Assembly (NCBI GenBank): GCA_015490875.1
Contig: WFWZ01000300.1
Span: 1 to 40,669 of the forward strand
DNA: 40,669 nucleotides
Direction: 5' to 3'
DNA from: Planctomycetaceae bacterium
Lineage (GTDB): Bacteria > Planctomycetota > Planctomycetia > Pirellulales > Pirellulaceae
The translations under genes were made by a program, and so were the position numbers. A model generated the notes under the pieces. It saw only the letters and a list, made by a program, of their open reading frames with translations, was not told where the DNA came from and did not search any database. Positions 22,341 to 38,211 of the stretch are shown in pieces (position 1 is the stretch's first letter; each line of letters starts with the position of its first letter).

Positions 22341-22422
22341 CAGTCACCAGGCAGGAGCTGGCACTGATGAGCGCAGCGAAGATATCGCGCTGATGCCGCT
22401 CCCGTGCACCAGGTCGTTCGCG
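22341..22422 (-). repeat. attC of cassette C22 (between C22 and C23)
   Basis: The R'' core GTTCGCG (22416-22422) is the exact reverse complement of the C22 5' boundary CGCGAAC (23354-23360). Inner arms pair as GCAC/GTGC, GAGCG/CGCTC and CAGCG/CGCTG. The left core is degenerate, so the left limit is approximate. Confidence 0.6.
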
Positions 22423-22474
22423 TGCATCTTGGTATCGCGCCACACGCCCCACCGCAAACACGGTCGCACTTCGA

Positions 22475-22503
22475 ATTGTAGCAGAATGCTATCAGAGCGT
22501 CAA
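22475..22503 (-). promoter_or_regulatory. Sigma-70 type promoter upstream of the C22 attC
   Basis: Minus strand TTGACG (22498-22503), 17-bp spacer, TACAAT (22475-22480). It is near consensus and lies 52 bp before the attC R'' end. It points through attC towards the DUF1963-like gene at 22307. Its spacer resembles that of the promoter at 27192-27220 (both CTG...GC...TTC.GC). Confidence 0.65.
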
Positions 22504-22573
22504 AATGTCTCGATCCACCCGGGTTCTTGACCTAAGCCTTGAACATCGAATCGGTCGTCGCGATATCCAAACC

Positions 22574-22759
22574 TCAAGGGTCAGGCAGCCTTTCGAGCCA
22601 CTGGTAGTAACGGAACGATCGGTGGCAAAAGAGATCGGAAGAAAACTCGACGCCATGCGCCCAACCCGATTGGTCGGAGACCCAGCCGAAAACTGTCAGC
22701 GCGATGATGATCACGCCGACGACTCCCATTATTAGCCATAGACGGCGTCTACGAGTCAT
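22574..22759 (-). CDS. Small single-span membrane protein
   Basis: A 61-residue frame starting MTRRRRLWLIMGVVGVIIIALTVFGWV has a positively charged N-terminus and one clear transmembrane helix. It begins 21 bp after the DUF1877-like gene, in the same cassette and strand. No strong ribosome site is visible, so it depends on coupling or may be unused. I do not recognise a family. Confidence 0.45.
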   Translation of the reverse strand: MTRRRRLWLIMGVVGVIIIALTVFGWVSDQSGWAHGVEFSSDLFCHRSFRYYQWLERLPDP

Positions 22760-22780
22760 TGTTCGGCACCGAACCCGACA

Positions 22781-23335
22781 TCAGCCAGCTCCCTCGAACA
22801 TGACTGGACGACTGTCGGCCAAAGCTTCTTCGAAAAACCGCAGAGCGTCACTACAGTAGCCCATGACGTATTCGAAATCCTCTTCGCTCACGAAATCCGC
22901 GTACCAGTGACGCCGCTTGGCGAATATCCCTCGCCATCCCTTCCGACGCGGCAACGGCTCGAGAAGCGAGAAGTATCGATCCTTTAGCACAGCCTTATCG
23001 AGCCTTCGCCACTGCGGAACAATGGCCCGAACCCGAGCGGCCGATAGTAGGGACCAATACCTCCCCTCCACCACATAAAGCTGTTGAGTTCCAAACTCTG
23101 TTGGTTCGCCCAAACAGTCAATAGGATCCGTGTCGATGATCCCCCGCGGCAAAATGCAGAAAAGCCCCCACCATGCCTTGTCCATCAGGCCCACATCATC
23201 CTCTCCGAACAGGCCGGTATCTTCATTCTCATTCAGGGTCTCGAACGCCTGCAAGAAGGACTCGCGGTCAGGTGCGGACAGGAACTGCCCGTATTGCTCG
23301 TTCGAGAGCTTGTAGAACGCTCCGCGTGCACCCAT
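22781..23335 (-). CDS. DUF1877 (YfbM-like) family protein
   Basis: The start at 23335 (MGARGAFYKLSNEQYGQFL, 184 residues) follows AGGGGA by 8 bp. The longer frame to 23416 crosses the attC and is rejected. DUF1877 features are seen in GEDDVGLMDKAWWGLFCIL, the central VEGRYWSLLSAARVRAIV and a C-terminal DALRFFEEAL segment. Family function is unknown (E. coli YfbM). It is the first gene of cassette C22, with its ATG about 20 bp after the cassette boundary, the spacing expected for cassette genes. Confidence 0.75.
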   Translation of the reverse strand: MGARGAFYKLSNEQYGQFLSAPDRESFLQAFETLNENEDTGLFGEDDVGLMDKAWWGLFCILPRGIIDTDPIDCLGEPTEFGTQQLYVVEGRYWSLLSAARVRAIVPQWRRLDKAVLKDRYFSLLEPLPRRKGWRGIFAKRRHWYADFVSEEDFEYVMGYCSDALRFFEEALADSRPVMFEGAG

Positions 23336-23353
23336 GACTTGTCCCCTAGCGAC

Positions 23354-23432
23354 CGCGAACACCCGACGGGGACGACGCTGGGAAGCGTCCATCTCGTCCC
23401 AGAGCTCGGCCGCCATTCTCGCCTGGTTTCAC
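23354..23432 (-). repeat. attC of cassette C21 (between C21 and C22)
   Basis: Left core CGCGAAC (23354-23360) and right core GTTTCAC (23426-23432). Inside are arms GGGACGA/TCGTCCC and a nested perfect GACGCT/AGCGTC hairpin. The right flank CGCCTGGTT matches the right flanks of attC3 and attC4. Confidence 0.6.
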
Positions 23433-23508
23433 CATCTCGTTATTCGGTGTGTGCGAGTTTGGCTTCGACAAAAAGCGGTTCCACTGTACCGACCCGCGAC
23501 GTCTGAGA

Positions 23509-24000
23509 TCACGACACACGGTGCTGTCGTCGACAGTGCGAAATGGCGGTCACCATACGTCTCGTGAACTCGTCACAAAACTCGGCGTCAGGTCCTTCGC
23601 GCGTGTAGCAGACGCGACAACCCAAGCCGTGAGCGTGACCTGGAAACATGATCCACTCGGTCCTACGATGCTGCCACAGGTACCCCATGTGCCACAGCCC
23701 AAGAAACAGCACAAACACTCCCGCCACGATTCGCACGACGGCCAAAGCGGACGTGACGAAGATGTAACCGCCCACGAAAACGAACACAACGGCAAATACC
23801 CATCCCATGTGGTAGATCAGGGGCGAGGTTGTCAAGGTTCCGTAAATTGGCGACAAGCACTCCAGGGGAACAGTCTGTTCCCACGACCCGCGATACGTCC
23901 GCGTTTTCACGCGCACCGAGTCCTTCGTGAGCGTGATCTCTCCCCGGGCGCCGATTGCGGCGAAGCGATACACCGTTTCTTCAGCACTGGTGGATTCCAT
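23509..24000 (-). CDS. Membrane protein of unknown function
   Basis: The 163-residue product has a soluble N-terminal part (residues 1-60), then two hydrophobic segments (MGWVFAVVFVFVGGYIFVTSA and VVRIVAGVFVLFLGLWHMGYLW). The C-terminal soluble tail has three cysteines (GLGCRVCYTREGPDAEFC). I do not recognise the family. It is the only gene of cassette C21. The start at 24000 (MESTSAEETVYRF) lies about 20-30 bp after the candidate cassette boundary. Confidence 0.6.
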   Translation of the reverse strand: MESTSAEETVYRFAAIGARGEITLTKDSVRVKTRTYRGSWEQTVPLECLSPIYGTLTTSPLIYHMGWVFAVVFVFVGGYIFVTSALAVVRIVAGVFVLFLGLWHMGYLWQHRRTEWIMFPGHAHGLGCRVCYTREGPDAEFCDEFTRRMVTAISHCRRQHRVS

Positions 24001-24018
24001 GACTGAAGTTTACAATCC

Positions 24019-24151
24019 GAGGAACGGAACAATCAAGTTCGTCCGACGGGAGTGGCACCGAGTCGCGTTGGTTTCACCCCGAGCCGCGATGGCCATTGCG
24101 ACTCGGGGACAGCGTCTGGACGAAAGCGAGTCCGGCTCAACGGCGGTTAAG
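24019..24151 (-). repeat. Candidate long attC of cassette C20
   Basis: The right core GTTAAGC (24145-24151) and left core GAGGAAC (24019-24025) flank two nested stems. The outer arms are TTCGTCC/GGACGAA. The inner hairpin is at 24077-24108, with arms CCCCGAG/CTCGGGG continuing as CGCGATGG/CCATTGCG. The length (133 bp) is in the range of Vibrio-type attC sites. Cores are degenerate, so this is a candidate only. Confidence 0.5.
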
Positions 24152-24167
24152 CACTCCTTGCTCTTGC

Positions 24168-24398
24168 TCAATGTCCAACGATTTCTTTGCGCCTGGGCCG
24201 TCGCGCCAAGAGGTAAATAAGAGCACCGATCCAGTGTGTGAAGAGAATGACGAGGATCCAAACGATCTTGTCATTTCCTTCGGAAGGCTCGTTCATGGCA
24301 CAGTCGATCAGCATCCAAATCCAGAGGATCGTACCTCCAATGCCAAGAACGCCAAAAACGAGCACGAATAGCAATCCAATAATGCTTGCACCCATCAT
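24168..24398 (-). CDS. Small membrane protein, PLDc_N (cardiolipin synthase N-terminal) type
   Basis: The 76-residue product has two membrane helices (IIGLLFVLVFGVLGIGGTILWIWML and VWILVILFTHWIGALIYLLAR) joined by DCAMNEPSEGNDKI. This is the PLDc_N pattern, in which a conserved WI.ML.D loop precedes the second helix. Stand-alone forms are common and of unknown role. A strong GGAGGAGG ribosome site precedes the ATG. It forms cassette C20 on its own. Confidence 0.75.
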   Translation of the reverse strand: MMGASIIGLLFVLVFGVLGIGGTILWIWMLIDCAMNEPSEGNDKIVWILVILFTHWIGALIYLLARRPRRKEIVGH

Positions 24399-24424
24399 TT
24401 TTCCATCCTCCTCCTTTATCAGCG

Positions 24425-25131
24425 TGCAATGTCTGACGTAACAGCGAGCGGAGGTGATGTCGATAAGCAGAGCCCGTGCGAGACGCGGACTCCTTTCCCA
24501 TTCTCCGATCTATTGCGTCAAGTGTCTGGAGTACCAAGCATCGAATTGGTCAAGATTGCATAGATCATACCATACCAAATCATCGATCACATAGTATGGG
24601 CCATCGTCAACCAACAAACGACCGTCCCGATCGCGGTCTGTGAGCCGAAAAAAGGGGGCGGAGCTTCGGAACGACGCCACCACGGAAACCGCCTGTCCTG
24701 CGAGGTGTCGCTTTCGACGTCGGCCGGCGCGCAGGTCGACAAATGCTCTCGGTACAGCAGCCATCCTCGCGACCGACACGGCTCGATAACCGGCCTCGCC
24801 ACGTTCCCCACTCGCCATTTGTCACGCGAGGCCACGGCACATTGACGGCGACCGTGCCCGGAACGACTACGGTAAAGATCGGGTTCTTGAGAAACAGAAG
24901 CATACCGTGCTATGGGGACGGAGGACGGGTCAGCCGACCGGAAGACGGCCCGCGACGTTGGTTTTCACAACTCCACGTCCGACCGGTGCTCCGGTCGAGC
25001 AAATGGTTATCTGTCACTTCCGCTGTTTGAAGGCAATCTGTCCGAGTGCGCGAGGCATCCAACAGTCTACCTGTTCCCGAACGACTTGTGCCAGTTGAGC
25101 AGAATCGTCATCCTTCTTATTCGACAACGGC
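24425..25131 (-). pseudogene. About 700 bp with a decayed or frameshifted gene
   Basis: No intact gene is convincing here. Two minus-strand frames look protein-like in part. One (from 24903) begins MLLFLKNPIFTVVVPGTVAVNVP, like the start of a membrane methyltransferase-type protein. Another (ending 24510) finishes DGRLLVDDGPYYVIDDLVWYD and then DAWYSRHLTQ. They would join only through a frameshift near 24690-24800. A degenerate core-like ACGTAAC lies near 24435. I read it as an inactivated cassette, with low confidence. Confidence 0.35.
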
Positions 25132-25935
25132 TCAAGTGTCCGTCGGCGTCTCATCCCATCGGTTGTAAGGAGCGTAGCCGGAAAGCCAGTTCAGCGCGAA
25201 GTGCCGCTCAATTGTGATCGACCGCACTTCCGCCCACTCTTCCGCGCTCAGCTCGCGGTATGCCTTGCCCCTGGCCGGAAAGTCTTCGGCGATCGGCACC
25301 ATCCGACCTTCCTTCGCCAGCTTTTTCGCCGTGAAACGAACCACATCATCGTAAGTCGAAAACCCCGCAGCTCTCGTTCGTTCGTCCGCCGGGAACTCTC
25401 GTCCTTCTTCGACTAGCTGACGAGTGCGGCTTCGCCAATGCCACCATTCGGCGTCGGAGCGCGCCCGATCAATTTCCGACTCCTCACGCAAGCAGGCCGA
25501 CGAAACAAACCGCCGAGCATCATCATTGGAAGGAATCTCTTTTAAGAGGTCATGACTGGCTGGTATGTCATATGGAGGAAGATGGCGAATCACTCCGAGC
25601 GCCCACATCAAGACCACTGCTGATTCGATGCGCCAGGTAGCATTGACCTGTTGGCCAGACGTCATCGTCACGATGGTGCTCCGGGCCAACTCGCGCTCAG
25701 TTGGTGACACGTCCTCCCACAGTCCCATGCGTTGAAGTGGTCGCCAAAACTGGTCGCGTCGGGCCTCGCCGTCAGCGGCAAACTTCTCTTGATCCTCAAC
25801 ACTCCAATTTTCCAATAGCTTGGCAAGCCTGTCGCGCGGCGGGGCCGTCAGGGCATAGACGATAACATACTTCAGCACGACAAGCCGTCGGGCGGCTTGT
25901 TCCGCTGATGGACGAGACACTTGTTTTCCTGTCAT
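25132..25935 (-). CDS. DUF4272 domain protein
   Basis: The 267-residue protein shows the DUF4272 pattern: SAEQAARRLVVLKYVIVYAL near the start, then WRIESAVVLMWALGVI in the centre, and CLREESEIDRARSDAEWWHWRSRT. The C-terminal third ends ERHFALNWLSGYAPYNRWDE. TTTGGAGGC precedes the ATG. Family function is unknown; it occurs beside immunity-type genes in many bacteria. No clear attC follows it on the left, so this cassette may have lost its recombination site. Confidence 0.8.
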   Translation of the reverse strand: MTGKQVSRPSAEQAARRLVVLKYVIVYALTAPPRDRLAKLLENWSVEDQEKFAADGEARRDQFWRPLQRMGLWEDVSPTERELARSTIVTMTSGQQVNATWRIESAVVLMWALGVIRHLPPYDIPASHDLLKEIPSNDDARRFVSSACLREESEIDRARSDAEWWHWRSRTRQLVEEGREFPADERTRAAGFSTYDDVVRFTAKKLAKEGRMVPIAEDFPARGKAYRELSAEEWAEVRSITIERHFALNWLSGYAPYNRWDETPTDT

Positions 25936-26064
25936 GCCTCCAAATACTCTCTGAGCAGAGAACCATTAGGGTAACGCAGTCGGGAATGACGGTCACCGAG
26001 CAAAGAAAGCCCGCCGGCTTATTCCAGCGAACGTTTGGCGCGTGATCTCCGTAGCGAATCTCCG

Positions 26065-26175
26065 GTCTAACTGCTATGACTCCGGTTTCACACCATCCCT
26101 AACCGGGCGACCACGAAAGATTGTTCAGTTCAAAATCGCTCGACTTCGCCACTATGGCTTGCAGCATTGTTCGAC
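26065..26175 (-). repeat. Candidate attC of cassette C17
   Basis: The left core GTCTAAC (26065-26071) fits the consensus exactly and the right core is GTTCGAC (26169-26175), near-complementary to it. Inner pairing is modest (CCGGTT/AACCGG and a TGCT/AGCA arm). The right core matches the C17 boundary ACCGAAC in five of seven bases. Confidence 0.35.
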
Positions 26176-26182
26176 GAGTGTG

Positions 26183-26938
26183 TTACCTAATGTAGACGAC
26201 TGTGCCTACGTCACTGTCGCGACGCAACAGAATCTCGTACGGCAATGGGCGAAAGTATAAAATCGGCGTCTTGGGGAATCCATACTCGTCCAGCCCAAAA
26301 TCGTGTTCGCCCCGAATGCCGTCGCTCACCTTCGTAGCGTATTTGCAGTCATTTACGGGGACGAACACGAGCATCTTGAATCGTTGCTCGAAAAAGCCGG
26401 GCGTACCGTCGGGCAGATCTTCGTTACGAAGGTTCTTGAGCTTCGATATCTTGTCGAACAATTCGGCGTACGTGAGTGAAAAGGAAAACCAAAACGTATT
26501 GAGTTTCAGGAAATCTTCCTTGGCCCTCCCTGCCTTGGAACCGTCGGCGTACTTGCCCAAGATGTCCCGCCCCGCGAAGCCATGACGTTTGGCAACCTTC
26601 GTTGCCAGAGTCGTGACCAGTCCACGTTCCAGCAAGACATCCAAGAACAGCCTTGCATCGTCGCCCTTCGTCTTGTCCAACAGTTCCGGATCAGACGCGA
26701 TCCTGAGAATCTCCGCTTCGTCCTCTGGAAGGTACGCCAGGAGATACATCTGGTGTTCTTTGTGTTCGACAGGACCGGTCTCCTTTTTGAACACCAATTC
26801 GATCGAGAGACGCTCGCCAGCGGCATGGCCGACAAAGATGGATGGCAGGTAACACTCCACCACTAGAGGATCCCGCTGCCCCCAAGCCACCGAAGGTACA
26901 AGAAAACATGCCAGTAGTGCCATGGACCAACGCATCAT
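26183..26938 (-). CDS. Exported protein of unknown function
   Basis: The ATG at 26938 gives MMRWSMALLACFLVPSVAWG, a clear signal peptide, and GGAG precedes it; the longer frame to 27010 is rejected. The mature part of about 230 residues is acidic/basic mixed with HQMYLLAYLPEDEAEIL, KLNTFWFSFSLTYAELF and MLVFVPVNDCKYATKV. I do not recognise a family. It is the only gene of cassette C17. It is predicted to be read from the strong promoter at 27192-27220 through the attC at 27097-27175. Confidence 0.65.
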   Translation of the reverse strand: MMRWSMALLACFLVPSVAWGQRDPLVVECYLPSIFVGHAAGERLSIELVFKKETGPVEHKEHQMYLLAYLPEDEAEILRIASDPELLDKTKGDDARLFLDVLLERGLVTTLATKVAKRHGFAGRDILGKYADGSKAGRAKEDFLKLNTFWFSFSLTYAELFDKISKLKNLRNEDLPDGTPGFFEQRFKMLVFVPVNDCKYATKVSDGIRGEHDFGLDEYGFPKTPILYFRPLPYEILLRRDSDVGTVVYIR

Positions 26939-27096
26939 ACCGCACTCCTTTCTCGCCGAAGGTCTGAAATAACCAGTCTGGCGGACCAGCGGTTTTTCGC
27001 ACTGACACACAGAGAATCGTAAACGAAAGAAACGACCATGGAAAACCGAAAAGCAAGCCGTCCCCTTGGCCGGCGGGGAGTTGGCGTGTTGATCGC

Positions 27097-27175
27097 ACCG
27101 AACCGACCACTTGGCTCCCGCTCACCCATTGATTCGAGTCCGTGTAAGTGCGGAGCTCCACGCGCCTCGTTGGAC
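27097..27175 (-). repeat. attC of cassette C16
   Basis: Left core ACCGAAC (27097-27103) and right core GTTGGAC (27169-27175) flank arms GGCTCC-C-GC and GC-GGAGC. The right core matches the reverse complement of the C16 boundary ATCCAAC in six of seven bases. The right flank CGCCTCGTT resembles other attC sites here. Confidence 0.55.
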
Positions 27176-27191
27176 ACCACTGCCACCACGC

Positions 27192-27220
27192 ATTGTAGCG
27201 AAGCATCGCCAGTGCGTCAA
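27192..27220 (-). promoter_or_regulatory. Strong sigma-70 type promoter at the end of cassette C16
   Basis: Minus strand TTGACG (27215-27220), 17-bp spacer, TACAAT (27192-27197), ending 16 bp before the attC R'' core. Points at the exported protein gene starting at 26938. It is the best promoter match I found in the array. Confidence 0.7.
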
Positions 27221-27505
27221 AATCCAGTAGCGGTAGTCGCCCAAGCCTTGCCAGCTGCTTCACTTGGCTGAGGAGTTACTCAACTCCTTCACGAACCGTC
27301 GAATTACGGTGTGCGGGATGGCGAGCATCTGGTGGTTATCGTGACTGGCAATGTGGACAGTTGTCCGAGGACAGTGCCCCACCGAAACTGACACAACATT
27401 CAGGGGCTCCTCTCGAGCATCGGGCTACTCGCCAACTTGGACTGGTTCTGAGGTTCGTTTCGTTCGTAGGAGGCCAATTCCATGAGCGGCAAAACGGCGC
27501 AACGT
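27221..27505 (-). other. Body of cassette C16, no convincing gene
   Basis: Between attC15 and the promoter above, about 285 bp hold no gene I can support. A 73-residue frame (27557 to 27336) starts inside attC15 and has no family. A small hairpin GGAGTT-ACTC-AACTCC lies near 27273-27288. Functionally this cassette may consist of a promoter and attC only. Confidence 0.5.
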
Positions 27506-27566
27506 ATCCAACAACTGACCGTCCATCCGGCGGCGCCATCGCAGAAAGATGGATCACGCATTGAAC
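27506..27566 (-). repeat. attC of cassette C15 (repeat-family copy D)
   Basis: Left core ATCCAAC (27506-27512) and right core ATTGAAC (27560-27566, A replacing the expected G). The hairpin arms CCATCC/GGATCA correspond to the same stem in attC6, attC9 and attC13. The degenerate right core suggests reduced activity. Confidence 0.55.
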
Positions 27567-27740
27567 CTTGCCGCGTCAGAATGTGCGAGTCGCCACTACG
27601 TCAAGGATTGTAACCGAGGCAAGTTGCCCGGTGCAACCGTTTCGCTGCTCCGATGAACTCGATCATACCACTTCGGCTGGTGACGCGATGCCGCGACATC
27701 ACGCCAAACTCCGCTTGAGGGGTTTTGCTTTCAGATTCCG
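27567..27740 (-). repeat. Cassette-tail repeat copy D with promoter-like core
   Basis: Shares about 170 bp of imperfect sequence with the tails of C6, C9 and C13. On the minus strand it carries TTGCAC (27631-27636), an 18-bp spacer and TACAAT (27607-27612), with the -10 box 40 bp from the attC R'' end. One frame encodes a remnant peptide WYDRVHRSSETVAPGN related to the tail of the zinc-ribbon frame in C9, interrupted by a frameshift. Confidence 0.6.
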
Positions 27741-27810
27741 TGGGCGTCCGCCGGATGGACACTCCGGCGAGGTTGCTCTATCGGCTCGTCGGGCCAGTGC
27801 TTTGAGCAAG

Positions 27811-28347
27811 TCAATGGGGTAGTGGCCACAACCCCAACAGAGCCCCCAGAAACACCGGCAACACGGACCAAACCAGCACCAACGTCAGCAGACCGAGGTA
27901 GCAGGTCAAGCGCGAGATCGCTGCCGGCTCCCCGCGCCGATGGCGACGCAGATTTCCGACCAGCAAGCAGGTCGGACCAATGCCCAAGAAAAACAGCAGG
28001 TACACGACAGCGTACCACGTCAACAGACGGTTGGATTCAGCGGGGAGACGCGGATCCACGCAGCCGAGTTTCGGGAGGATCGCTGGAAACGGGGCGACGA
28101 CCGCCCCCACGGAGACCAGCAAGAGGAACGCGACTGCCAAACGTCGCGCACCCTTGGCCGTGGCGTGATGCAAAAGCAGCAGCGCCGCGAGCGGCGGCGA
28201 GACGAAAAGCAGAAGCACCCCAGTGCTCACGCCTCGGAGCTGGACAAGATGAACAACCGCCACGAGCAACGCCGCAACACCTTTGTAGATGCCGTGCTGG
28301 GTCAACCCACCAATCGCGTTGCCTTGTCGGTCTGTTGAGGTGCTCAT
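27811..28347 (-). CDS. Multi-span membrane protein of unknown function
   Basis: The ATG at 28347 (MSTSTDRQGNAIGGLTQHG) gives 178 residues; the longer frame to 28716 covers an inverted repeat and part of attC14 and is rejected. Four to five membrane helices are visible: GVAALLVAVVHLVQLRG, VLLLFVSPPLAALLLL, LAVAFLLLVSVGAVVAPF, LLTWYAVVYLLFFLGIGPTCLL and CYLGLLTLVLVWSVLPVFLG. I do not recognise the family. It is the only gene of cassette C15, whose tail carries repeat copy D. Confidence 0.65.
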   Translation of the reverse strand: MSTSTDRQGNAIGGLTQHGIYKGVAALLVAVVHLVQLRGVSTGVLLLFVSPPLAALLLLHHATAKGARRLAVAFLLLVSVGAVVAPFPAILPKLGCVDPRLPAESNRLLTWYAVVYLLFFLGIGPTCLLVGNLRRHRRGEPAAISRLTCYLGLLTLVLVWSVLPVFLGALLGLWPLPH

Positions 28348-28691
28348 CGCCTTGGGACCTAACGCCCCTGGGAGCCGAAGGGCGGCCCATCGGCCGTTAC
28401 TCGCACTGTACCGAATTCTCTGCGGGCGTGCAAATCGTCCAGTCGAGACGCAAACCGCCAAGGGACGAGAACCCACACAAGTCCGATCCGAACATTTTCG
28501 TGTGTTTCGTGTATTTCGTGGTTGATCCCTCTTCGCGAGTACCCGTCGACCGAAGCCAGACCACAGCCAACCACGAAAGACACAAAAGACACGAAAGCGT
28601 GACTGCGCCCAGGCGAGACGGGAAACGAGTGGCGTGCCAACGCGACCACTACCGCATCCATCGACAATCGGGTTTCGAGTTCCCTCACGCC
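28348..28691. repeat. Gene-free cassette segment with a 30-bp inverted repeat
   Basis: No gene is convincing in these 344 bp. Arms at 28495-28524 and 28568-28597 match in 26 of 30 positions as an inverted repeat separated by 43 bp; both are built from repeated CACGAAA-type units (plus strand TTTCGTG on the left, CACGAAAGACAC on the right). It could be a small non-autonomous element or a strong RNA hairpin in the leader of the gene at 28347. Confidence 0.55.
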
Positions 28692-28788
28692 ATCTAACCG
28701 TCGACGGGCAACGCACACAGGTAGATCGTGCGTTGAACTGTGTCGTGTCAGCACCGACGCTGCCGCCCGCTCTCTCGCAACGTTATCC
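28692..28788 (-). repeat. attC of cassette C14 (apparently chimeric)
   Basis: Left core ATCTAAC (28692-28698, exact consensus) and right core GTTATCC (28782-28788). The left half contains the stretch GGTAGATCGTGCGTTGAAC found in the attC6/9/13 family, including an 8-bp CAACGCAC/GTGCGTTG stem. The right half (GCCGCCCGCTC) matches attC3. It may be a recombination product of two attC types. Confidence 0.6.
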
Positions 28789-28804
28789 ACGTATGTTTCT
28801 CAGT

Positions 28805-29644
28805 TCAGCCGTCTTGCGCAATCCAAGTCAAATGCGGGAGATTCGACGTGTTCCGCTCGCGGTCACCACGAAGAAGCAACTCGTGCAATACAGCCTTGAG
28901 CCATTCCATCCGGTCCGACTGCAGCATTGACCCGAATCTGATTGTTCGATCAGCCGCAAGTTCGATAACCCTGTTGGTGGCACCGTCCGACTGCCACGCA
29001 GAGGTCCCATAAGTGATCGCGTGAACCTTGCGCGGATCGAACCGCCGCTTCCATTTGAAGAACCAGACTCCCGTGGCAACCCAAGAATCACGCTCATCGA
29101 TGACGACTTCGACTTTACCAACTAGGTTGATGATTGCTCCAAGGGTCATCCCAACGCCAACGGTTACAAACGGAATAAGGAACACACACAAAAACAATGT
29201 CATTCCGAGCCCCATTGGTTGACCGTTCATTTCTGGTTTCCCTTGTTCGAGTTCCGGAGCGGGAAACCAGGCTGGAAGGGGACCGATCAAATTTGCGTAG
29301 AGTCCAGCGATCGCAATCAGTACAAACACCGAAAGGATGCCGTTCCAAAACAAAGCGAATCCCGCATAACCTAGGAAGCCAGAAAGCGATCGCAATGAAG
29401 CTGTTGCGATAACACCTAGCCCCACAGGTTGAATGGAGCATCCGACAGGTGGCTGGCTGAGAATCTCCTGAATGGAACGTCTGCTGTAATTCAATTCCGA
29501 AAGACGTGATAGCAGGCCACACTTGGGGCACAGCGCGACGCCTTCCTTGATATTGATGGCATCCGAATCGATCGATTCGTCACAGTTAGGGCATCGCTGC
29601 AACTCTTGTCCTTTCACGAATTGCCATACCTCTCGAAGGCCCAT
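28805..29644 (-). CDS. Zinc-ribbon membrane protein of unknown function
   Basis: The 279-residue product starts MGLREVWQFVKGQELQ and carries a zinc ribbon with two CxxC knuckles (CPNCDESI at about 18 and CPKCGLLS at about 38). Two or three membrane segments follow (ILSVFVLIAIAGLYANLIG and TLFLCVFLIPFVTVGVGMTLGAI), then a soluble C-terminal domain (WKRRFDPRKVHAITYG). It is a typical layout for a small membrane-anchored sensor or scaffold, but no function is assigned. It is the only gene of cassette C14. The promoter-like tail repeat of C13 and attC13 lie directly upstream. Confidence 0.7.
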   Translation of the reverse strand: MGLREVWQFVKGQELQRCPNCDESIDSDAINIKEGVALCPKCGLLSRLSELNYSRRSIQEILSQPPVGCSIQPVGLGVIATASLRSLSGFLGYAGFALFWNGILSVFVLIAIAGLYANLIGPLPAWFPAPELEQGKPEMNGQPMGLGMTLFLCVFLIPFVTVGVGMTLGAIINLVGKVEVVIDERDSWVATGVWFFKWKRRFDPRKVHAITYGTSAWQSDGATNRVIELAADRTIRFGSMLQSDRMEWLKAVLHELLLRGDRERNTSNLPHLTWIAQDG

Positions 29645-29664
29645 CGGTCATCTTCAAGCACGAA

Positions 29665-29725
29665 TGAAATGAATTGCCATCCATCCGTCGAAGTGCAGCG
29701 CAGACAGATAGATCGTGTGTTGGAC
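29665..29725 (-). repeat. attC of cassette C13 (repeat-family copy C)
   Basis: The right core GTTGGAC (29719-29725) is followed on the left by the same hairpin as attC6 and attC9 (ATCCGTC...GACAGATAGATC). The left core is degraded (TGAAATG, 29665-29671), so the site may be inactive. Confidence 0.55.
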
Positions 29726-30071
29726 TTCGTCGCGTCGCGGTCAGCAGCTGCCTGCTACACCAATGATTGTAAAGGAAAAAAGTGGCCCGATGCAACCGTT
29801 TCGGCGCTCCGATGGGGTGGACCATTCCACGAAGGACGGCAGCCGGCAACACGAGCCGCCAACGTAAGCGAGACATCGGCAATGGGGAGCCCATTACTGC
29901 GACTCCGATCGACCGGCCGAAGCCATGATGTCACGCCAACCGAATCCTCAGTCATCACAAGCGGGCGACGCATTCATGGCCTCACACACGTCCTTCGAAA
30001 GCGCAGCCAATCGGCAGGGACCGAAGGTGGCGGCGTTCGGTACCTAGCGCCACGCCGTAAAGCGAGATTAA
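29726..30071 (-). pseudogene. Cassette C13: decayed homologue of cassette C9 with tail repeat copy C
   Basis: No intact gene. The 5' part (29960-30071) aligns with the 5' part of C9 (32545-32659): shared pieces include GCAGCCA.TCGGC and GAGATTAAGTTCA. The 3' part is tail repeat C with TTGCAT (29790-29795), an 18-bp spacer and TACAAT (29766-29771). The zinc-ribbon coding segment of C9 is missing and about 70 bp are inserted in the tail peptide frame. It looks like an old duplicate of C9 whose gene has been lost. Confidence 0.5.
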
Positions 30072-30178
30072 GTTCAGCGTTCCAAGTAGCGAGGCGGGGA
30101 ATGGATGCTGAAGAGCGAACCGAACGCGCTGCGCTAATCCTGCTTCCGTTCATCCCTTGGTGCATCGCCTTGTTCTGC
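30072..30178 (-). repeat. attC of cassette C12
   Basis: The right core GTTCTGC (30172-30178) is the exact reverse complement of the C12 boundary GCAGAAC (30703-30709). The left core GTTCAGC (30072-30078) is a one-base variant of the GTTCAAC in attC8, and both flanks match attC8. The YcxB-like gene ends inside it at 30134. Confidence 0.7.
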
Positions 30179-30670
30179 CACGTTGTTTTTCGCGTCGAGT
30201 TTCCCATGCGATACAAGCCAACCACGGAGGGCATCATACTCGTCATCCTCGAGCTCCGTCTTCGGCAAGTATAATTCAAGCCGAGGCGACTCCTGAACCA
30301 AGAATGAAATCATCCTCGGCGAATCCTCCGCGGAAAGGATCCAATCCCAGTCTTGCCTCACAATCTCGCCGTTATGGTCCACGATCACGTCGTCTTCCGT
30401 GAACGTCACGGTTCGTTGATCCACTCGCCGTGATTGAACAGCCGCCGCAATGATATGTAGCGTCAACACAGCCGCACAAAGAGCGGCAAAGTACCTCAAG
30501 CCCTTCCATGCCATATCCATTGGTTCGATCGACGTCTTGTGGCCGTGAATCCCATACGTCATCAACGCAACGGCCGTGGCGTACCGGAATATACTACGTC
30601 GCAGGAACCAACGGACCTTCGCCCGCATCACGAAACGGAACTTGTTTACGAAGGTCTTGGTGATTTCCAT
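30134..30670 (-). CDS. YcxB-like membrane protein
   Basis: The ATG at 30670 (MEITKTFVNKFRFVMRAKV) gives 178 residues; the longer frame to 30838 crosses attC11. The pattern of two membrane segments (IFRYATAVALMTYGI and YFAALCAAVLTLHIIAAAV) followed by a beta-rich domain (TVTFTEDDVIVDHNGEIVR) and a PKTELEDDEYDALRGWL segment resembles YcxB-like (PF14317) proteins. The role is unknown. The last residues (VAEQGDAPRDERKQD) are encoded by attC12. It is the only gene of cassette C12. Confidence 0.65.
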   Translation of the reverse strand: MEITKTFVNKFRFVMRAKVRWFLRRSIFRYATAVALMTYGIHGHKTSIEPMDMAWKGLRYFAALCAAVLTLHIIAAAVQSRRVDQRTVTFTEDDVIVDHNGEIVRQDWDWILSAEDSPRMISFLVQESPRLELYLPKTELEDDEYDALRGWLVSHGKLDAKNNVAEQGDAPRDERKQD

Positions 30671-30702
30671 GGTATTGCCGCCGAATTCCGAATCGCTGAC
30701 CG

Positions 30703-30794
30703 GCAGAACGATTCGGGTCAACGAGTGGTGGCCCGCGACTTTCCAGATCGGATTCTGAGCCCAACCGTCGCTCCGGTTGAGCGATTCGTCAGGC
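30703..30794 (-). repeat. attC of cassette C11
   Basis: Left core GCAGAAC (30703-30709) and right core GTCAGGC (30788-30794). The right core differs by one base from the reverse complement of the C11 boundary GCCTAAC. Arms GATTCGGGTCAACG and CGGTTGAGCGATTC are partly complementary. The DUF3592 gene stops immediately next to it. Confidence 0.6.
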
Positions 30795-31409
30795 TCATCT
30801 CCTGTCCGAATGGACCATGAAAATACCCAGAGCCGCAAAAACGCTTCCGACTCCGCCGAACACCAAGGGGATCGCCCAATTGTCCAAGAATGTATTCAGG
30901 CGACCCGACGCGGGTTGGTCCGCTGGATAGAGAACCTCAACGTTCTCGCCCACGCGCGGAAGCCAGGTAGGAGTCGAGCCGACGTCCCCCTCAGTTCTGT
31001 ACTTGACGCCGTCAACCTCATACTCCACGACCGGATGCCACGTGGTCTCTGTTCCCGATTCTCCAACGCGGCTCGTCGTCTCCTCGCGCAACTGAACGAC
31101 GGTTCCCGTTGTCCGCTTCGCGCCCGTCAGGAGACAGAAGGACCGGACGCCCCAACCGAAGCCAAACAAGGCGAAAAGTGTTCCGATGACGAGAAAACCC
31201 CACGCCGCTACAACAGCTTGATTCCCATCCCGTCCTCTGTTCAGGGATGAGTCCGATCCGTGCGTAGTTTTCTCTGTTTCCGTGAGCGCTGTCACAAACA
31301 GACCCTTGGCGCGAAGACTCTGCCGCGCTTCATCAGCATTCGCTGCTCGCAGATCACCTTCCCGACGTTCGCCGGAAACATCCATCGCTTGGTAGCGGAA
31401 GTGTCGCAT
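30795..31409 (-). CDS. DUF3592 membrane protein with GspF-like N-terminal segment
   Basis: The 204-residue product begins MRHFRYQAMDVSGERREG and continues LRAANADEARQSLRAKGLFV, a pattern like the N-terminal segment of type II secretion/type IV pilus GspF proteins (YxAxDxxG...G.i.A....A...L...G). A membrane helix (AAWGFLVIGTLFALFGFGWGV), a DUF3592 domain (TTWHPVVEYEVDGVKYRTEG, then VGENVEVLYPADQP) and a last helix (IPLVFGGVGSVFAALGIFMV) follow. GGAGGT lies 5 bp before the ATG, an excellent ribosome site. It is the only gene of cassette C11. Function unknown. Confidence 0.75.
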   Translation of the reverse strand: MRHFRYQAMDVSGERREGDLRAANADEARQSLRAKGLFVTALTETEKTTHGSDSSLNRGRDGNQAVVAAWGFLVIGTLFALFGFGWGVRSFCLLTGAKRTTGTVVQLREETTSRVGESGTETTWHPVVEYEVDGVKYRTEGDVGSTPTWLPRVGENVEVLYPADQPASGRLNTFLDNWAIPLVFGGVGSVFAALGIFMVHSDRR

Positions 31410-31425
31410 GGGTGACCTCCCGACA

Positions 31426-31550
31426 GCCTAACGTTTGAGGTAACGGGGCGGGCCGAAGCCATCGACTTTGGACAACCAATTACCGCAATCGAAGAAACTG
31501 AGGTTGAAGAGCCGGAAACCTGCCTGCTCCCGTTCACCGACTTGTTACGT
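31426..31550 (-). repeat. attC of cassette C10
   Basis: The right core GTTACGT (31544-31550) is the exact reverse complement of the C10 boundary ACGTAAC (32019-32025). Left core is GCCTAAC (31426-31432). Arms GGCGGGC and GCCTGCTCCCG are partly complementary. At 125 bp it is of the long Vibrio type. Confidence 0.75.
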
Positions 31551-31724
31551 GCTGGTCGCGATTCATGTGGCGTAATGTGATCACGATAGAGTGATGGTGG
31601 CGGCTCTATGCTTCTGTACTGGATGGATGGACCGAGTGACACAACGAAGGCCGCTCAGCCCCAAAGTCGAGCCCCGTGTCGGACAAATCAACACGGCGTG
31701 TCGACATCGATCTATATCGGCATT

Positions 31725-31982
31725 CTACGATGATTGTTCACGAGCCATGTTTTCCTCTATCGCAGTTCTCTCTTGTGGACTTCGTGGCCAGACTTGTCGC
31801 ATGAGGAAGAATGACGTCAAAGCTCCTGCTCCGAAGCACAACCAGTATTGAATTGTAAAGACAGTTTCGCTGTCGATGCCGAGGAGAAACACAGTGAAAA
31901 ACGCGAAAACAGCGTAGTACAGGTTCAGAAAGACGCCAGCGACAATGATTCCGGCGAACACGATGGCGATTCTGGCGATCAT
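31725..31982 (-). CDS. Small membrane protein of unknown function
   Basis: The 85-residue product has two hydrophobic segments (ARIAIVFAGIIVAGVFLNLYYAVFAFF, split over two helices, and YWLCFGAGALTSFFLM). The C-terminal tail is basic then acidic. No family is recognised. It is the only gene of cassette C10. The 174 bp between its stop and attC10 show nothing I can name. It is predicted to be read from the C9 tail promoter through attC9. Confidence 0.6.
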   Translation of the reverse strand: MIARIAIVFAGIIVAGVFLNLYYAVFAFFTVFLLGIDSETVFTIQYWLCFGAGALTSFFLMRQVWPRSPQERTAIEENMAREQSS

Positions 31983-32018
31983 TGTTCTGTGTAAGGCGGA
32001 TCGGTGTTCCCTTTAAGC

Positions 32019-32087
32019 ACGTAACGAAAAACGAATTGCAATCGATCCGTCGGAGTGCCGGGCAGACAGATAGATCGTGTGTTGAAC
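32019..32087 (-). repeat. attC of cassette C9 (repeat-family copy B)
   Basis: The right core GTTGAAC (32081-32087) is the exact reverse complement of the C9 boundary GTTCAAC (32653-32659). Left core is ACGTAAC (32019-32025). The hairpin arms (ATCCGTC and GACAGAT) match attC6 and attC13. Confidence 0.75.
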
Positions 32088-32127
32088 TTTGTCGCGTCGG
32101 AGTGGGCGAGTGCCCGCTACGCTAAGG

Positions 32128-32157
32128 ATTATAGCGGAGGCGAGTGGCCGGGGGCAA
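32128..32157 (-). promoter_or_regulatory. Promoter-like core in the C9 tail (copy B)
   Basis: Minus strand TTGCCC (32152-32157), 18-bp spacer, TATAAT (32128-32133). The -10 box is a perfect consensus and lies 40 bp from the attC9 R'' end, the same distance as in the three other copies. It points through attC9 into the gene starting at 31982. Confidence 0.6.
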
Positions 32158-32341
32158 CCGCTTCGGCGCTCCGGTGAGGGGGACCATACCACCTTGGACG
32201 GTCCGTAGAGGCCATCACGTCCTGCCAACTCGGCTTGGAGATCTCTCCTTGCGAAATCATCGGTTGTCCGCACGATGGACACGTGGCAGAGGATTCGTCA
32301 TCGCCTTGTGGCTCGAGTGAGACGGACCCGGGCGCAAGCAC
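32129..32341 (-). CDS. Small single-knuckle zinc-ribbon-like ORF
   Basis: A GTG-started frame of 70 residues contains a CPSCGQPM knuckle and ends in PRWYGPPHRSAEAVAPGH then SPPL. The tail peptide recurs in tail copies C (WNGPPHRSAETVASGH) and D (WYDRVHRSSETVAPGN), and partly in A (TETVASGHSPPL). It could be a real small protein of cassette C9 or the end of a longer decayed gene; an ATG in another frame (near 32362) hints at a frameshift. Its last codons overlap the promoter-like core. Confidence 0.4.
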   Translation of the reverse strand: MLAPGSVSLEPQGDDESSATCPSCGQPMISQGEISKPSWQDVMASTDRPRWYGPPHRSAEAVAPGHSPPL

Positions 32342-32652
32342 CTTGTCTCAAGAACAGTCATTCTGCTGCCGCACGGTGCGGCAGGCGATCTCTTCTTTCA
32401 AGGATGCTTGCGCATGCTCACAAGCGCAAATCGATTTTATCGGAACAACCCCTACGACTCCTCGTGGGGCACTGCATGAAGGACGGGACAACTGGGACTA
32501 CGGTCGTGCCGGTAGGCCGTGGGCATCATCAGGCATCCCAAGAGAGTGACGCACTCATGGCATCAGACGTGTACTTCGAGTGCGCAGCCAGTCGGCTGAG
32601 AACGAAGATGGTGACGCTAAACACGTTGCACTGTGCCAACAGCCGCGATTAA
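32342..32652. other. 5' part of cassette C9 without a convincing gene
   Basis: About 310 bp between the boundary at 32659 and the zinc-ribbon frame. Minus-strand frames are short and uninterpretable. A perfect small inverted repeat (CTGCCGCACC/GGTGCGGCAG type, near 32368-32387) is visible. The first 110 bp match the same part of C13. Confidence 0.5.
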
Positions 32653-32782
32653 GTTCAACGACCAAGATCACCGGGCGGGCAGACCAACAGGAGTGATCGT
32701 GGAAAAACCAAAAACCGCAAACGAAGCGAACGACTTTGAAAACCGAACACGTAGCCCGCTCCGGTGCATTGCCTTGTTATCC
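32653..32782 (-). repeat. attC of cassette C8
   Basis: The right core GTTATCC (32776-32782) is the exact reverse complement of the C8 boundary GGATAAC (33335-33341). Left core is GTTCAAC (32653-32659). Arms GATCACCGGGCGGGC and GCCCGCTCCGGTGC pair with bulges. Length 130 bp. The gene of C8 ends inside the R'' core. Confidence 0.8.
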
Positions 32783-33319
32783 GACGTTTGGCTGGTAGAG
32801 TTGGTCAAGCGTCAATTGAATTACGTGGATTGTATCATCCTGCGGCGGATCGCGATAATTGGTAGTTGGGGAATAGAAGAAAAGGTATTTGTGTTCTGCG
32901 TTTGCCTCTTGCAACCGCGTGAAATCGTTCGCGAGCTTATTGTTGTTGTTTGGCGTGACCGCAGCGAAGCATTCGGCGATTATTGATCCGTCGGTGTTTT
33001 GAATGTCGTATCCGGCAACTGGGCCAACATTCAATTGTAGTGGAAGGGCGTTCGGATGGGATAGGAGGATCAATTTGGCACCGGCAAACGATACCAATGA
33101 CGTGAATGATTGGTTGATCGCCTCCACGACATTGTATGATTCATCGCTATCGAATGGACTGAAGGCCGTGAACGTGAATCGAAGCTCGTGAATCAGGTCA
33201 ATTCCGTGATGTTGCGTCAGTAGTCTTTGCAGATTCGCGGTTGTTTTTCGCGCTGCGGTGAGCACTTCGAGGTGAAGGCGTGAGAGATCTTCACGGGAGT
33301 TGATTTGCAGTGTCGGCAT
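32777..33319 (-). CDS. Unknown protein, possibly restriction-endonuclease-like fold
   Basis: The 180-residue protein starts MPTLQINSREDLSRLHLEVL. Its centre has VGPVAGYDIQNTDGSIIAECF and then AAVTPNNNNKLANDFTRLQE. The D...(I)IAE-C-F pattern followed by N-N-N-K-L resembles the beta-hairpin core of PD-(D/E)XK-like proteins, but the catalytic Lys after Glu is absent, so I treat the fold call as tentative. The last residues (NVG) run into the attC8 core. It is the only gene of cassette C8. Confidence 0.6.
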   Translation of the reverse strand: MPTLQINSREDLSRLHLEVLTAARKTTANLQRLLTQHHGIDLIHELRFTFTAFSPFDSDESYNVVEAINQSFTSLVSFAGAKLILLSHPNALPLQLNVGPVAGYDIQNTDGSIIAECFAAVTPNNNNKLANDFTRLQEANAEHKYLFFYSPTTNYRDPPQDDTIHVIQLTLDQLYQPNVG

Positions 33320-33334
33320 GGAGTGGATTTAGTC

Positions 33335-33409
33335 GGATAACGTTTGAATTAAGCGGCGCGCGTTAGCGCGTCCGGCGCCGTAGGCGCGAACTTGAATGAC
33401 TTGTTATGC
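33335..33409 (-). repeat. attC of cassette C7
   Basis: The right core GTTATGC (33403-33409) is the exact reverse complement of the C7 boundary GCATAAC (33865-33871). Left core is GGATAAC (33335-33341). On the minus strand the flanks (CATAACAAGTCATTCAAG and TTAATTCAAACGTTATCC) closely match the classical aadA-type 59-base element. Confidence 0.85.
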
Positions 33410-33416
33410 GTTTCGA

Positions 33417-33854
33417 TCACAGTGCTTCAACCGTTAGGGCTAGCCCTAGACGGGGTCCCTCTTCAAGCACGGCTTTCCGCAACCCCTTTTTGTATCGATT
33501 GGCTGCCTGCGCAGGACACACAAAACAAAATGACCGTATTTGCGGCGTTGAGTTATATCTCGCGATCAATACCTTGAAGATATCCCGATAGAACTCGAAA
33601 TGATCGTTGTTTGGTGAAACTTTCAATTCGTAGGCAACTCCTGCTTCCAAATCTACGAGATCAATTCTTTCGTTAAGATGATCTGCAACTGGGTGTTCAG
33701 CCGAAAATCGACCTGGGTACTTTGACAAGACTGCATTTTGCCAATCCGCTGTTACTGCTGCTGCGAGCTTATCACCAGTGCCAGCATCACCACTCATTCG
33801 CCAATGCTTTGAGTGGGCTTCCCTGCATAGTTTAATCACGGTTTCATGCGGCAT
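33417..33854 (-). CDS. PD-(D/E)XK nuclease-like protein
   Basis: The 145-residue product (MPHETVIKLCREAHSKHW) contains ERIDLVDLEAGVAYELKVSP: Asp65 and Glu76-x-Lys78 fit the D...(D/E)XK catalytic core of the restriction-endonuclease-like superfamily. A helix with FYRDIFKVLIARY follows, as expected after the core. It may be a small restriction or defence nuclease, or a nuclease-fold regulator. It is the only gene of cassette C7. The ATG lies about 11 bp after the cassette boundary. The C6 tail promoter at 33967-33996 is predicted to drive it through attC6. Confidence 0.7.
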   Translation of the reverse strand: MPHETVIKLCREAHSKHWRMSGDAGTGDKLAAAVTADWQNAVLSKYPGRFSAEHPVADHLNERIDLVDLEAGVAYELKVSPNNDHFEFYRDIFKVLIARYNSTPQIRSFCFVCPAQAANRYKKGLRKAVLEEGPRLGLALTVEAL

Positions 33855-33864
33855 GGCTTTTCAC

Positions 33865-33926
33865 GCATAACGAATTGCGATCTATCCGTCGGAGTGCAGC
33901 GTAGACGGATAGATCGTGCGTTGAAC
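33865..33926 (-). repeat. attC of cassette C6 (repeat-family copy A)
   Basis: Left core GCATAAC (33865-33871) and right core GTTGAAC (33920-33926). Between them is a perfect 12-bp stem GATCTATCCGTC/GACGGATAGATC with a short loop, the best-preserved hairpin of this attC family. The C6 boundary that should match the right core is not clear. Confidence 0.75.
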
Positions 33927-33966
33927 TTTGTCGCGTCGGAGTGGGCGAGTGCCCGCTACGCCAAGC

Positions 33967-33996
33967 ATTCTAACGGAGGCGAGTGCCCCGATGCAA
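33967..33996 (-). promoter_or_regulatory. Promoter-like core in the C6 tail (copy A)
   Basis: Minus strand TTGCAT (33991-33996), 18-bp spacer, TAGAAT (33967-33972). The -10 box is 40 bp from the attC6 R'' end, identical geometry to copies B, C and D. The nuclease-like gene at 33854 starts just past attC6. Confidence 0.6.
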
Positions 33997-34033
33997 CCGT
34001 TTCGGTGGTTCATCGCGTGGTTCTCTGCTATTG

Positions 34034-34630
34034 CTACATTGTGTATGTCCGATCAAATGACCGTTCGACGAAGTCTCGGATCTCATCCTGTGTGAGCATC
34101 CGCGATTCGGCGTTTTCATCGCGAGATTCAATGATCTTTTGCCGAATCTCAGCCATCCGCTCTGAGCGGTCGAAATCTGCCTGGAGTATTCCATTGGCAA
34201 AGATCAGCTCAATCACGGTCATGTATTTCCATGCCGGGTGAAAGCCCATGTGGACGTAGAGATCATCAATGAACCCATCAGCAAGCAGCAGTCCACCCGT
34301 GTATTCCAAATGGTAGTCGAGTCCGATGTAGTTGTTGTTGAACCAGTCATGTTCTCCGTGCGGGCCCGTCGGACTGACACCATTGATCGGCGGCCCCGCT
34401 TGACGCTTGTAGTCTTCATCTTCGGCAAAGAGGTTCACATGCAACGTATCGAGAACGAGGTGCGATTGTGAGATGGCAAAGATCGCCTGATAACCGCGCC
34501 AGCACGCGGTGCAAGTGCCGACAGGTTTCAGACCAAGCAAGCCGGGGTCAAAGAGCTCACCTTCGCTGATTCCGGAGACAGAGAAGTTCGTTCCGTTGTA
34601 CCGAAACATGTCGTCGATTTGGGCAGTCAT
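34034..34630 (-). CDS. Protein of unknown function
   Basis: The ATG at 34630 (MTAQIDDMFRYNGTNFSVSG) follows AGGAG by 9 bp and gives 198 residues; the longer frame to 34666 lacks a ribosome site. The protein has a CTACW motif (residues about 39-43), a central DYHLEYTGGLLLADGFIDDL and an acidic C-terminal helix. No signal peptide or membrane segment. I do not recognise the family; size and composition recall immunity-type cytoplasmic proteins. It is the only gene of cassette C6. Confidence 0.65.
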   Translation of the reverse strand: MTAQIDDMFRYNGTNFSVSGISEGELFDPGLLGLKPVGTCTACWRGYQAIFAISQSHLVLDTLHVNLFAEDEDYKRQAGPPINGVSPTGPHGEHDWFNNNYIGLDYHLEYTGGLLLADGFIDDLYVHMGFHPAWKYMTVIELIFANGILQADFDRSERMAEIRQKIIESRDENAESRMLTQDEIRDFVERSFDRTYTM

Positions 34631-34705
34631 GTTTCGTGTCTCCTGAGCCCTGATGCTAAGCCTCACAATATCTGAGACGAATGAGGGGCCTGAGTCTCAC
34701 TTTAG

Positions 34706-36151: not shown

Positions 36152-36991
36152 CTACGAGGTGCCGCCGAAACGGTCCGCAAGCTCGTAGCCCTCGTTGGTG
36201 AGTCCGAACACTTCGCCCTTGTGACCACGTGCTTCCATCAATCCGAGATTAAGGAGTTCTTCAATAGCCCCTTTCCAACGTGCTTCGCTTCGCGCGTCAC
36301 CCATTTGTGCAAGTTGCTTGCCGTTTGTTTGTACTATAAGGCCACCCATTACGCGGATACACACCACTGTACCGCTGGTGTCCCTTGCCGCCTCTAACAA
36401 CAACTGCTTCGCGGTGTCGCTCAGTTGCGGAATTGCCTGTGCGCGCGACATAATTTCGGCAGCATGCGTTGTCCCAACATTTCCGTACTCGCGGATGATG
36501 GTTTGTGCGAGTTGACGCCGGAATTTCCCTTGGAATTCCTCAAGGGAATCGTACGTTTCAATCAGGCCACGCTTTTGACACGAAGCGCGAAATTCGCGGA
36601 GTGCATTGTATTGCTCGTCATCGACGCTGTCTGGGCGGACGGGGGCATTTGAGAAATACAGCATGGCCGGCTTGCCGGACGCAAGATGTTCCTCGATCTC
36701 TTCGACGGTCCCACTGGCAGCCTTTCCGGTCGGTGTTCCCAGACGAGTCCAGAATATGGCAATAAGAAGGTCGCAGTTTTGCAAGACTTGCTTATTGATT
36801 ACGGCTTGAGCACGGTCTCCCATTTCGGGTGCCGAGTGAGTTTCCCAACCGACCGGAACGAGTATCACTCGACGATCGGCAGAATGCACCGCGTTCCAAT
36901 CGTGAATCGCTGACCGAACGATGTTTCGTTCAGTGGCAACGTCTCCTGGCGACGCGATCATCACGTTGATGACTGTTGCGTTGTATGGCAT
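36152..36991 (-). CDS. DUF4062-like protein with C-terminal winged helix
   Basis: The 279-residue protein opens MPYNATVINVMIASPGDVATE, a Rossmann-like start typical of DUF4062, with CDLLIAIFWTRLGTPTG and SGTVEEIEEHLASGKPAMLYF as the following strands and helices. These features resemble TIR/SLOG-type nucleotide-binding effectors. The C-terminal part (WKGAIEELLNLGLMEARGHK, then VFGLTNEGYELAD) is a winged-helix DNA-binding-like domain. It may be a defence effector or regulator; no catalytic residue is proven by sequence alone. It is the only gene of cassette C3. Confidence 0.65.
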   Translation of the reverse strand: MPYNATVINVMIASPGDVATERNIVRSAIHDWNAVHSADRRVILVPVGWETHSAPEMGDRAQAVINKQVLQNCDLLIAIFWTRLGTPTGKAASGTVEEIEEHLASGKPAMLYFSNAPVRPDSVDDEQYNALREFRASCQKRGLIETYDSLEEFQGKFRRQLAQTIIREYGNVGTTHAAEIMSRAQAIPQLSDTAKQLLLEAARDTSGTVVCIRVMGGLIVQTNGKQLAQMGDARSEARWKGAIEELLNLGLMEARGHKGEVFGLTNEGYELADRFGGTS

Positions 36992-37011
36992 TCGCGTTTC
37001 GCCTTATTTGG

Positions 37012-38184: not shown

Positions 38185-38211
38185 GATGTCCTCCCGTTGC
38201 AGTTCTTGGGT

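Follow-up and report, generated by a model that had tools for sequence, protein, structure and literature searches.

Promoter-like boxes ahead of the attC-type end in a family of transposase-bearing integron cassettes of the Pirellulaceae

Integron cassettes that lie far from the promoter of the integron itself are generally held to be expressed poorly, and the locus described here raises the question whether some cassettes bring along a promoter for their neighbours. The window, i.e. the whole stretch of DNA analysed, is the 40,669-nucleotide (nt) contig WFWZ01000300.1 of a Planctomycetaceae bacterium (family Pirellulaceae, assembly GCA_015490875.1), whose genome is a draft of 5.7 Mb in 429 contigs; the genomes of its relatives are partly drafts as well. 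In a preliminary description, the tails of four cassettes (C6, C9, C13 and C15) were seen to share a -35/-10-like motif at 40 bp from the R'' core of the attC site, and two more (C16 and C22) to carry a similar motif, all six being aimed across the attC hairpin at the gene of the next cassette. This was taken as a general promoter-attC module. We favour, with a probability of about 0.7, a narrower reading: the shared tails would be the mostly decayed 3' ends of a Pirellulaceae family of integron cassettes bearing an IS91 transposase gene and an outward promoter before attC.

The shared tail and the cassette family it belongs to

All six promoter-like sites, four of one pattern and two of the other, were found at the positions and on the strand described. 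The pattern TTGC-N20-TANAAT has exactly four matches in the window, all on the minus strand and all at the four tails (expected 0.08; no shuffled sequence had four), and the gap between the end of the -10 box and R'' was confirmed as 40 nt in each of them. A search of the genome with the C6 tail returned 14 full or near-full copies with 76-100% identity, four of them inside the window. Their alignment defined a repeat of approximately 126 bp with a core from CCGAAACGG to CGTT; similarity drops sharply 3' of CGTT, and at varying points on the 5' side. The four tails are thus homologous copies of one repeat, so that their common motif and their fixed 40 bp are inherited and do not represent independent coincidences. 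When the region was scanned with the plain sigma-70 consensus, no excess of promoter-like sites emerged (7 observed, 9.4 expected), and the case therefore depends on the shared tails and not on the quality of the boxes. Among the four, only C9 reached a consensus score of 10/12, the other -35 boxes matching little beyond TTG. An Rfam search of the window yielded tRNAs and one sub-threshold match only, which leaves an explanation by a known RNA unsupported. The features of these tails are as follows.

33967-33996, minus strand: outward promoter-like site of C6, TTGCAT-N18-TAGAAT, 40 nt before R'' (pattern match)
33865-33926, minus strand: attC-like hairpin of C6, from R'' GTTCAAC to R' GTTATGC (sequence and alignment)
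33865-34010, minus strand: C6 tail, a 5'-truncated 3' end of a transposase cassette joined to an unrelated gene (34034-34666; repeat search, alignment)
32031-32658, minus strand: C9, internally deleted IS91-transposase cassette with both conserved ends, TTGAACTTAATCG ... CAATTCG (start CGTTGAACTTAATCGCGG at 32660)
32132-32347, minus strand: transposase C-terminus remnant in C9, CPSCG...KPSWQDVM...RPRWY (hmmsearch, E 1.3e-13)
32128-32157, minus strand: outward promoter-like site of C9, TTGCCC-N18-TATAAT (pattern and consensus scan)
32030-32087, minus strand: attC-like hairpin of C9
29671-30077, minus strand: C13, internally deleted transposase cassette with both ends, CTGAACTTAATC ... CAATTCA (start CGCTGAACTTAATCTCGC at 30079)
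29766-29795, minus strand: outward promoter-like site of C13, TTGCAT-N18-TACAAT (pattern match)
29668-29725, minus strand: attC-like hairpin of C13
28688-28738, minus strand: attC-like hairpin of C14, same class, without promoter, joined to a truncated ordinary attC arm
27599-27730, minus strand: transposase C-terminus remnant in C15, behind an unrelated gene (hmmsearch, E 0.0023)
27607-27636, minus strand: outward promoter-like site of C15, TTGCAC-N18-TACAAT (pattern match)
27510-27566, minus strand: attC-like hairpin of C15

As read from these sequences, C6 and C15 are 5'-truncated transposase-cassette tails fused behind unrelated genes, and C14 is a hairpin remnant alone.

The repeat is the 3' end of a cassette carrying an IS91-family (HUH/Y2) transposase gene. 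Many copies are preceded by the C-terminal part of a protein with the signature CxxCG...KPSWxxVM...RPxWY, some by the whole protein, and a transposase fragment ends near attC in 60 of the 105 copies with enough flanking sequence. Whole transposases pass the NF033538 model (295.3 and 286.2 bits, curated cut-off 125), match the Y2_Tnp (PF04986) and Zn_Tnp_IS91 (PF14319) domains, and show HUH (HPHVH) and YxxxY (YLARY) motifs in their translations. The genome under study has one stop-free copy, at the end of another contig (C107). Between two copies from Neorhodopirellula pilleata the ratio of nonsynonymous to synonymous substitution rates (dN/dS) is 0.24, a value indicative of purifying selection on the transposase.

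A first search of related genomes recovered only the hairpin half of the repeat; its attC core is present in 62 of the 241 Pirellulaceae genomes, and also in named Rhodopirellula and Neorhodopirellula records. Carriers in culture include N. pilleata, Rhodopirellula solitaria and R. maiorica. An intact cassette consists of G/TTGAACTTAATCG (the slash marks the edge), the transposase gene, the putative promoter and an attC-like hairpin ending in CAATTCG/TT. Both edges fall on G/TT crossovers, and the neighbours differ between copies, as in integron cassettes. The two N. pilleata copies agree over exactly 2008 bp, with the edges G/TTGAAC and CG/TT, and one of them sits in an array beside intI with its 5' edge following an ordinary attC. 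Four copies in one genome (G237) share the start G/TTGAACTTAATCGG despite different neighbours; copies in G203 and G196 behave alike, and in these three genomes and others the conserved 5' end lies directly behind different attC arms. The 5' end also pairs with the cassette's own R'' (GTTGAAC with GTTCAAC). In a lineage with CTTCAAC as R'', six of the seven positions pair; as this lineage retains the GTTGAAC 5' end, there is no clean covariation, and we discarded this as proof of pairing. A GTTGAAG match at two loci (L139 and L182) is probably due to chance.

Two further loci touch on this architecture. At L171 a mini-cassette of about 155 bp runs from the conserved 5' end GTTGAACTTAATCG to attC without any transposase. 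At L207, in a more distant relative from another family (G282, contig C160), genes for an IntI-like protein, a tyrosine recombinase and an IS91 transposase stand in a row (the upstream gene names were assigned by eye), and the transposase gene is followed by nested inverted repeats, CGTCCAACG...CGTTGGACG, which resemble an attC with a bulged base and differ from the hairpin described here. A wide spread of the same transposase subfamily through the phylum was considered and dropped, since only 2 of 294 genomes, one of them the genome under study, had it at E 1e-60.

Conservation of the boxes across lineages

The 105 copies with enough flank were used for a promoter test, in which the 120 upstream bases were clustered into 42 diverged groups under grouping thresholds that we set ourselves. 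The best match to TTGACA/TATAAT was scored against dinucleotide shuffles for spacers of 13-22 nt, a consensus from which planctomycete preferences may differ. On the outward strand, enrichment was found at a spacer of 18 nt (z 7.5) and 17 nt (z 6.6), all other spacers giving z values of at most 3.3. At spacer 18, a match of at least 9/12 occurred in 10 of the 42 groups, against 0.6 expected. No enrichment was seen on the reverse strand, where the group means at spacers 17 and 18 were equal to or below those of the shuffles. The boxes recur around unrelated spacer sequences (TTGCAA-N18-TAAAAT, TTGCAC-N18-TAAAAT, TTGCGA-N18-TAGAAT, CTGGCA-N18-TCTAAT and TTGACA-N18-TAAAAT, among others). We also counted a looser box pattern, which, unlike the consensus scan, was picked after the data had been seen.

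As a control, the same test was run on 70 ordinary attC sites of these loci, which showed no promoter enrichment, with z at most 1.8 at every spacer. They had been collected by a stem-with-bulge rule that gave 91 raw matches against 13 in reversed sequence; a stricter pattern yielded only 9 sites and was not used. The boxes thus do not belong to cassette tails in general, as first proposed, but to one transposase cassette family. Within it the enrichment outward through attC was seen over the 42 groups taken together, comparative support that the C16 and C22 sites lack. The 18-nt spacing, which the preliminary description had proposed to look for in other planctomycetes, recurs there together with a 17-nt one, but the distance to attC is not fixed: -10 and R'' lie 26 to 80 nt apart, depending on the lineage of the family, and the constant 40 nt holds only inside one repeat family.

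The boxes might be codons and nothing else. The peptide HRSAETVAPGH, which had been named as an alternative from the start, is indeed the extreme C-terminus of the IS91-family transposase (HRSAETVAPGHSPPLQSLA) and overlaps the boxes in the window's genus, where the frame runs through them and is intact in two copies (L003 and L017). Several features of the tails speak against a purely coding origin. In the genome under study, the boxes are 95.5% conserved versus 87% for the remainder of the tail (p 0.003, with columns treated as independent), and variation at third codon positions does not exceed that at first positions (0.856 versus 0.843 conserved). In three copies (C9, L002 and L010) the peptide has given way to TATAAT, which introduces an in-frame stop (TAA). 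In several other lineages the transposase stop lies 226-311 nt before attC, yet boxes with 17- or 18-nt spacing are retained downstream; there they are noncoding, and a peptide cannot explain them. Substitutions that preserve the peptide but not the boxes would have spoken for the peptide; the comparison instead favours the promoter, since the boxes outlast the peptide both in these three copies and in the noncoding lineages, which already contradict the coding explanation. We consider this explanation very improbable, although the peptide accounts for part of what is seen in this genus.

Proposed mechanism and rival explanations

On our preferred reading, an intact cassette would be organised as G/TTGAACTTAATCG, transposase gene, sigma-70-type promoter (approximately (T/C)TGnnn, 18 or 17 nt, TAnnAT) and attC (GTTCAACGCACGATCTATCC...GGATAGATCGCAATTCG/TT). 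RNA polymerase would use the boxes to start a transcript about 7 nt below the -10 box, shortly before attC, and this transcript would run through the hairpin into whatever the integron integrase had joined at the R' crossover; within an array this would be the following cassette, and in an excised circle the cassette's own transposase gene. In the window, leaders of about 106 nt for C7, 139 nt for C10 and 115 nt for C14 are predicted. C7, which lies behind the C6 tail, starts with TTATGC, the complement of its own R'' GCATAAC (33403-33409), as expected had the integrase joined it there. Expression of neighbours may be the reason why the boxes have been kept.

Several observations weigh against this reading. 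About one quarter of the 42 groups have no recognisable promoter, and in several groups the transposase C-terminus extends into the boxes. A Rho-independent terminator lies inside the attC loop of 9 of the 120 copies, from about four lineages, so that transcripts would end there before reaching the next cassette and read-through cannot be general. Such terminators, for example AGCTCAACTAGCAAGTTGAGCTTTTTT, were noted in the transposase cassettes L030 (N. pilleata), L042, L085, L114, L126, L147 and L152. Furthermore, both ends of the cassette are conserved beyond what the integrase needs, so that selection may have acted for the transposase rather than for its neighbours.

In a possible, though not favoured, alternative, the promoter serves mainly for transposase expression once the cassette has been excised as a circle, and the activation of other cassettes is a by-product. 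The promoter is aimed through attC, beyond which the transposase is the next gene in a circle, the transposase is under purifying selection, and the full-length copies checked, which represent few lineages and were scored by consensus alone, had no promoter-like site of 9/12 or better in their 5' region. Decayed copies without a transposase nevertheless keep their boxes, and the terminators found in some attC loops would block transcription of the circle as well. The same terminators would be at home in a model in which the promoter yields a short RNA ending in the attC hairpin instead of an mRNA leader; as 111 of the 120 copies, including all those in the window, are devoid of such a terminator, we consider this model improbable.

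The hairpin itself raises another alternative. Its stem arms pair with compensatory changes (a stem G-C pair also occurs as A-T in 6 cases and as C-G in 2, and an outer C-G pair as G-C in 8), but its L arms pair without a bulge, whereas ordinary attC sites in the same loci do have the extrahelical base in the L stem that sets the strand choice of attC. This departure and the nearly fixed sequence of both the hairpin and the 13-nt 5' end across genera suggest that the cassette ends are read by a further protein as well, possibly by the transposase. An IS91-like transposon inserting at attC crossovers could have its oriIS end in this tail, the hairpin being a transposase site that only looks like attC. 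The position of the tail 3' of the transposase gene is the one expected of oriIS, its hairpin and the 13-nt end are conserved beyond the needs of attC, and the 5'-truncated copies have one common 3' end. Such copies are also explainable by deletions between adjacent cassettes, and the edges fit integrase crossovers exactly, as does the start of C7. IS91 inserts beside a fixed tetranucleotide (GTTC or CTTG) at its oriIS side, whereas the base after GTT at the hairpin varies (A in 56 copies, T in 25, C in 24 and G in 3), unlike a fixed target. We therefore regard the transposon-end explanation as rather unlikely. A combination of both is somewhat more doubtful still: one hairpin would serve two enzymes, as integrase site and as single-strand origin of the cassette's own HUH transposase, and the unit could move by either route. 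If so, attC and promoter might be pasted together behind unrelated genes, as in C6 and C15, to create new cassettes, which would offer a concrete source of attC sites, whose origin is a long-standing open question.

Other features of the locus and relation to known systems

The remaining features of the window, including the two promoter-like sites outside the transposase family, are the following.

27192-27220, minus strand: promoter-like site of C16, TTGACG-N17-TACAAT
22475-22503, minus strand: promoter-like site of C22, TTGACG-N17-TACAAT
40079-40669, minus strand: C-terminal part of the integron integrase (TIGR02249, 321.6 bits, cut-off 265)

The C16 and C22 sites are the only two matches to their pattern in the window. 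Their tails share about 30 nt, TTTTGACGCnnTG-N10-GCTACAAT, before ordinary attC sites, and no other copy of this block was found in the 5.7-Mb genome. As they show no similarity to the repeat either, we rejected them as members of the transposase family; the two sites may be real promoters, forming a separate, unrepeated pair with little support. The N-terminal half of the integrase is probably the one located on another contig (C392, 6-563). In C14 (28688-28790) and C6 (33990-34034), an apparent truncated left arm of an ordinary attC is joined to a transposase-type tail, so that these genes now bear a second-hand attC. As judged by eye, the first cassettes of the array (36152-39846) encode an OLD/AAA-type ATPase, a ClpP-like serine protease and a DUF4062-like protein, and are possibly defence genes.

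A transposase cassette with an outward promoter before attC would provide arrays with many internal transcription starts, spread by the transposase cassette and not by each gene, and its copies could switch on whichever cassette lands behind them. The conservation of the spacing across genera makes this idea testable. Should the attC hairpin be used by the transposase too, the family would bear in addition on how genes gain attC sites. We found no report of planctomycete transposase cassettes in the open-access literature, which is weak evidence of their absence from it.

Related arrangements have been described elsewhere. The IS91-like element ISCR1, which is associated with class 1 integrons, contains the outward promoters PCR1-1 and PCR1-2 in its oriIS region, which raise downstream expression (PMC6218425). 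The Pirellulaceae family resembles it in its IS91-family transposase gene, its link to integrons and its putative outward sigma-70-type promoter in the 3' region, where -35/-10 boxes of conserved spacing before the end of the element recall a POUT promoter. ISCR1 is however not a cassette; its place is the 3' conserved segment of class 1 integrons, and its end is an oriIS instead of an attC. Members of the present family, by contrast, are found in chromosomal arrays, with the edges of a cassette and an end of attC type. With the IS91 family at large it shares a transposase above the curated cut-off and both family domains; it differs in being bounded by attC-type crossovers, and no IS91-type target or terminal sequence was recognised. 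Its hairpin follows the R''/L''/L'/R' plan of ordinary chromosomal attC sites, with a GTT crossover and a variable loop, but is distinguished from them by its near-fixed sequence across genera, the unbulged L stem and the promoter-like boxes ahead of it. In Vibrio superintegrons, gene-less cassettes with promoter activity were demonstrated by reporter assays and 5'-RACE (PMC11014356). C9 and C13 fit this description, as they contain no intact gene and have a candidate sense promoter toward the next cassette; unlike those of Vibrio, the Pirellulaceae promoter traces to one transposase cassette family and was recognised by conservation across species, not by assay. As far as can be judged from sequence, the Pirellulaceae family thus joins features of ISCR1 and of the Vibrio cassettes, namely a putative IS91-type outward promoter in cassette form.

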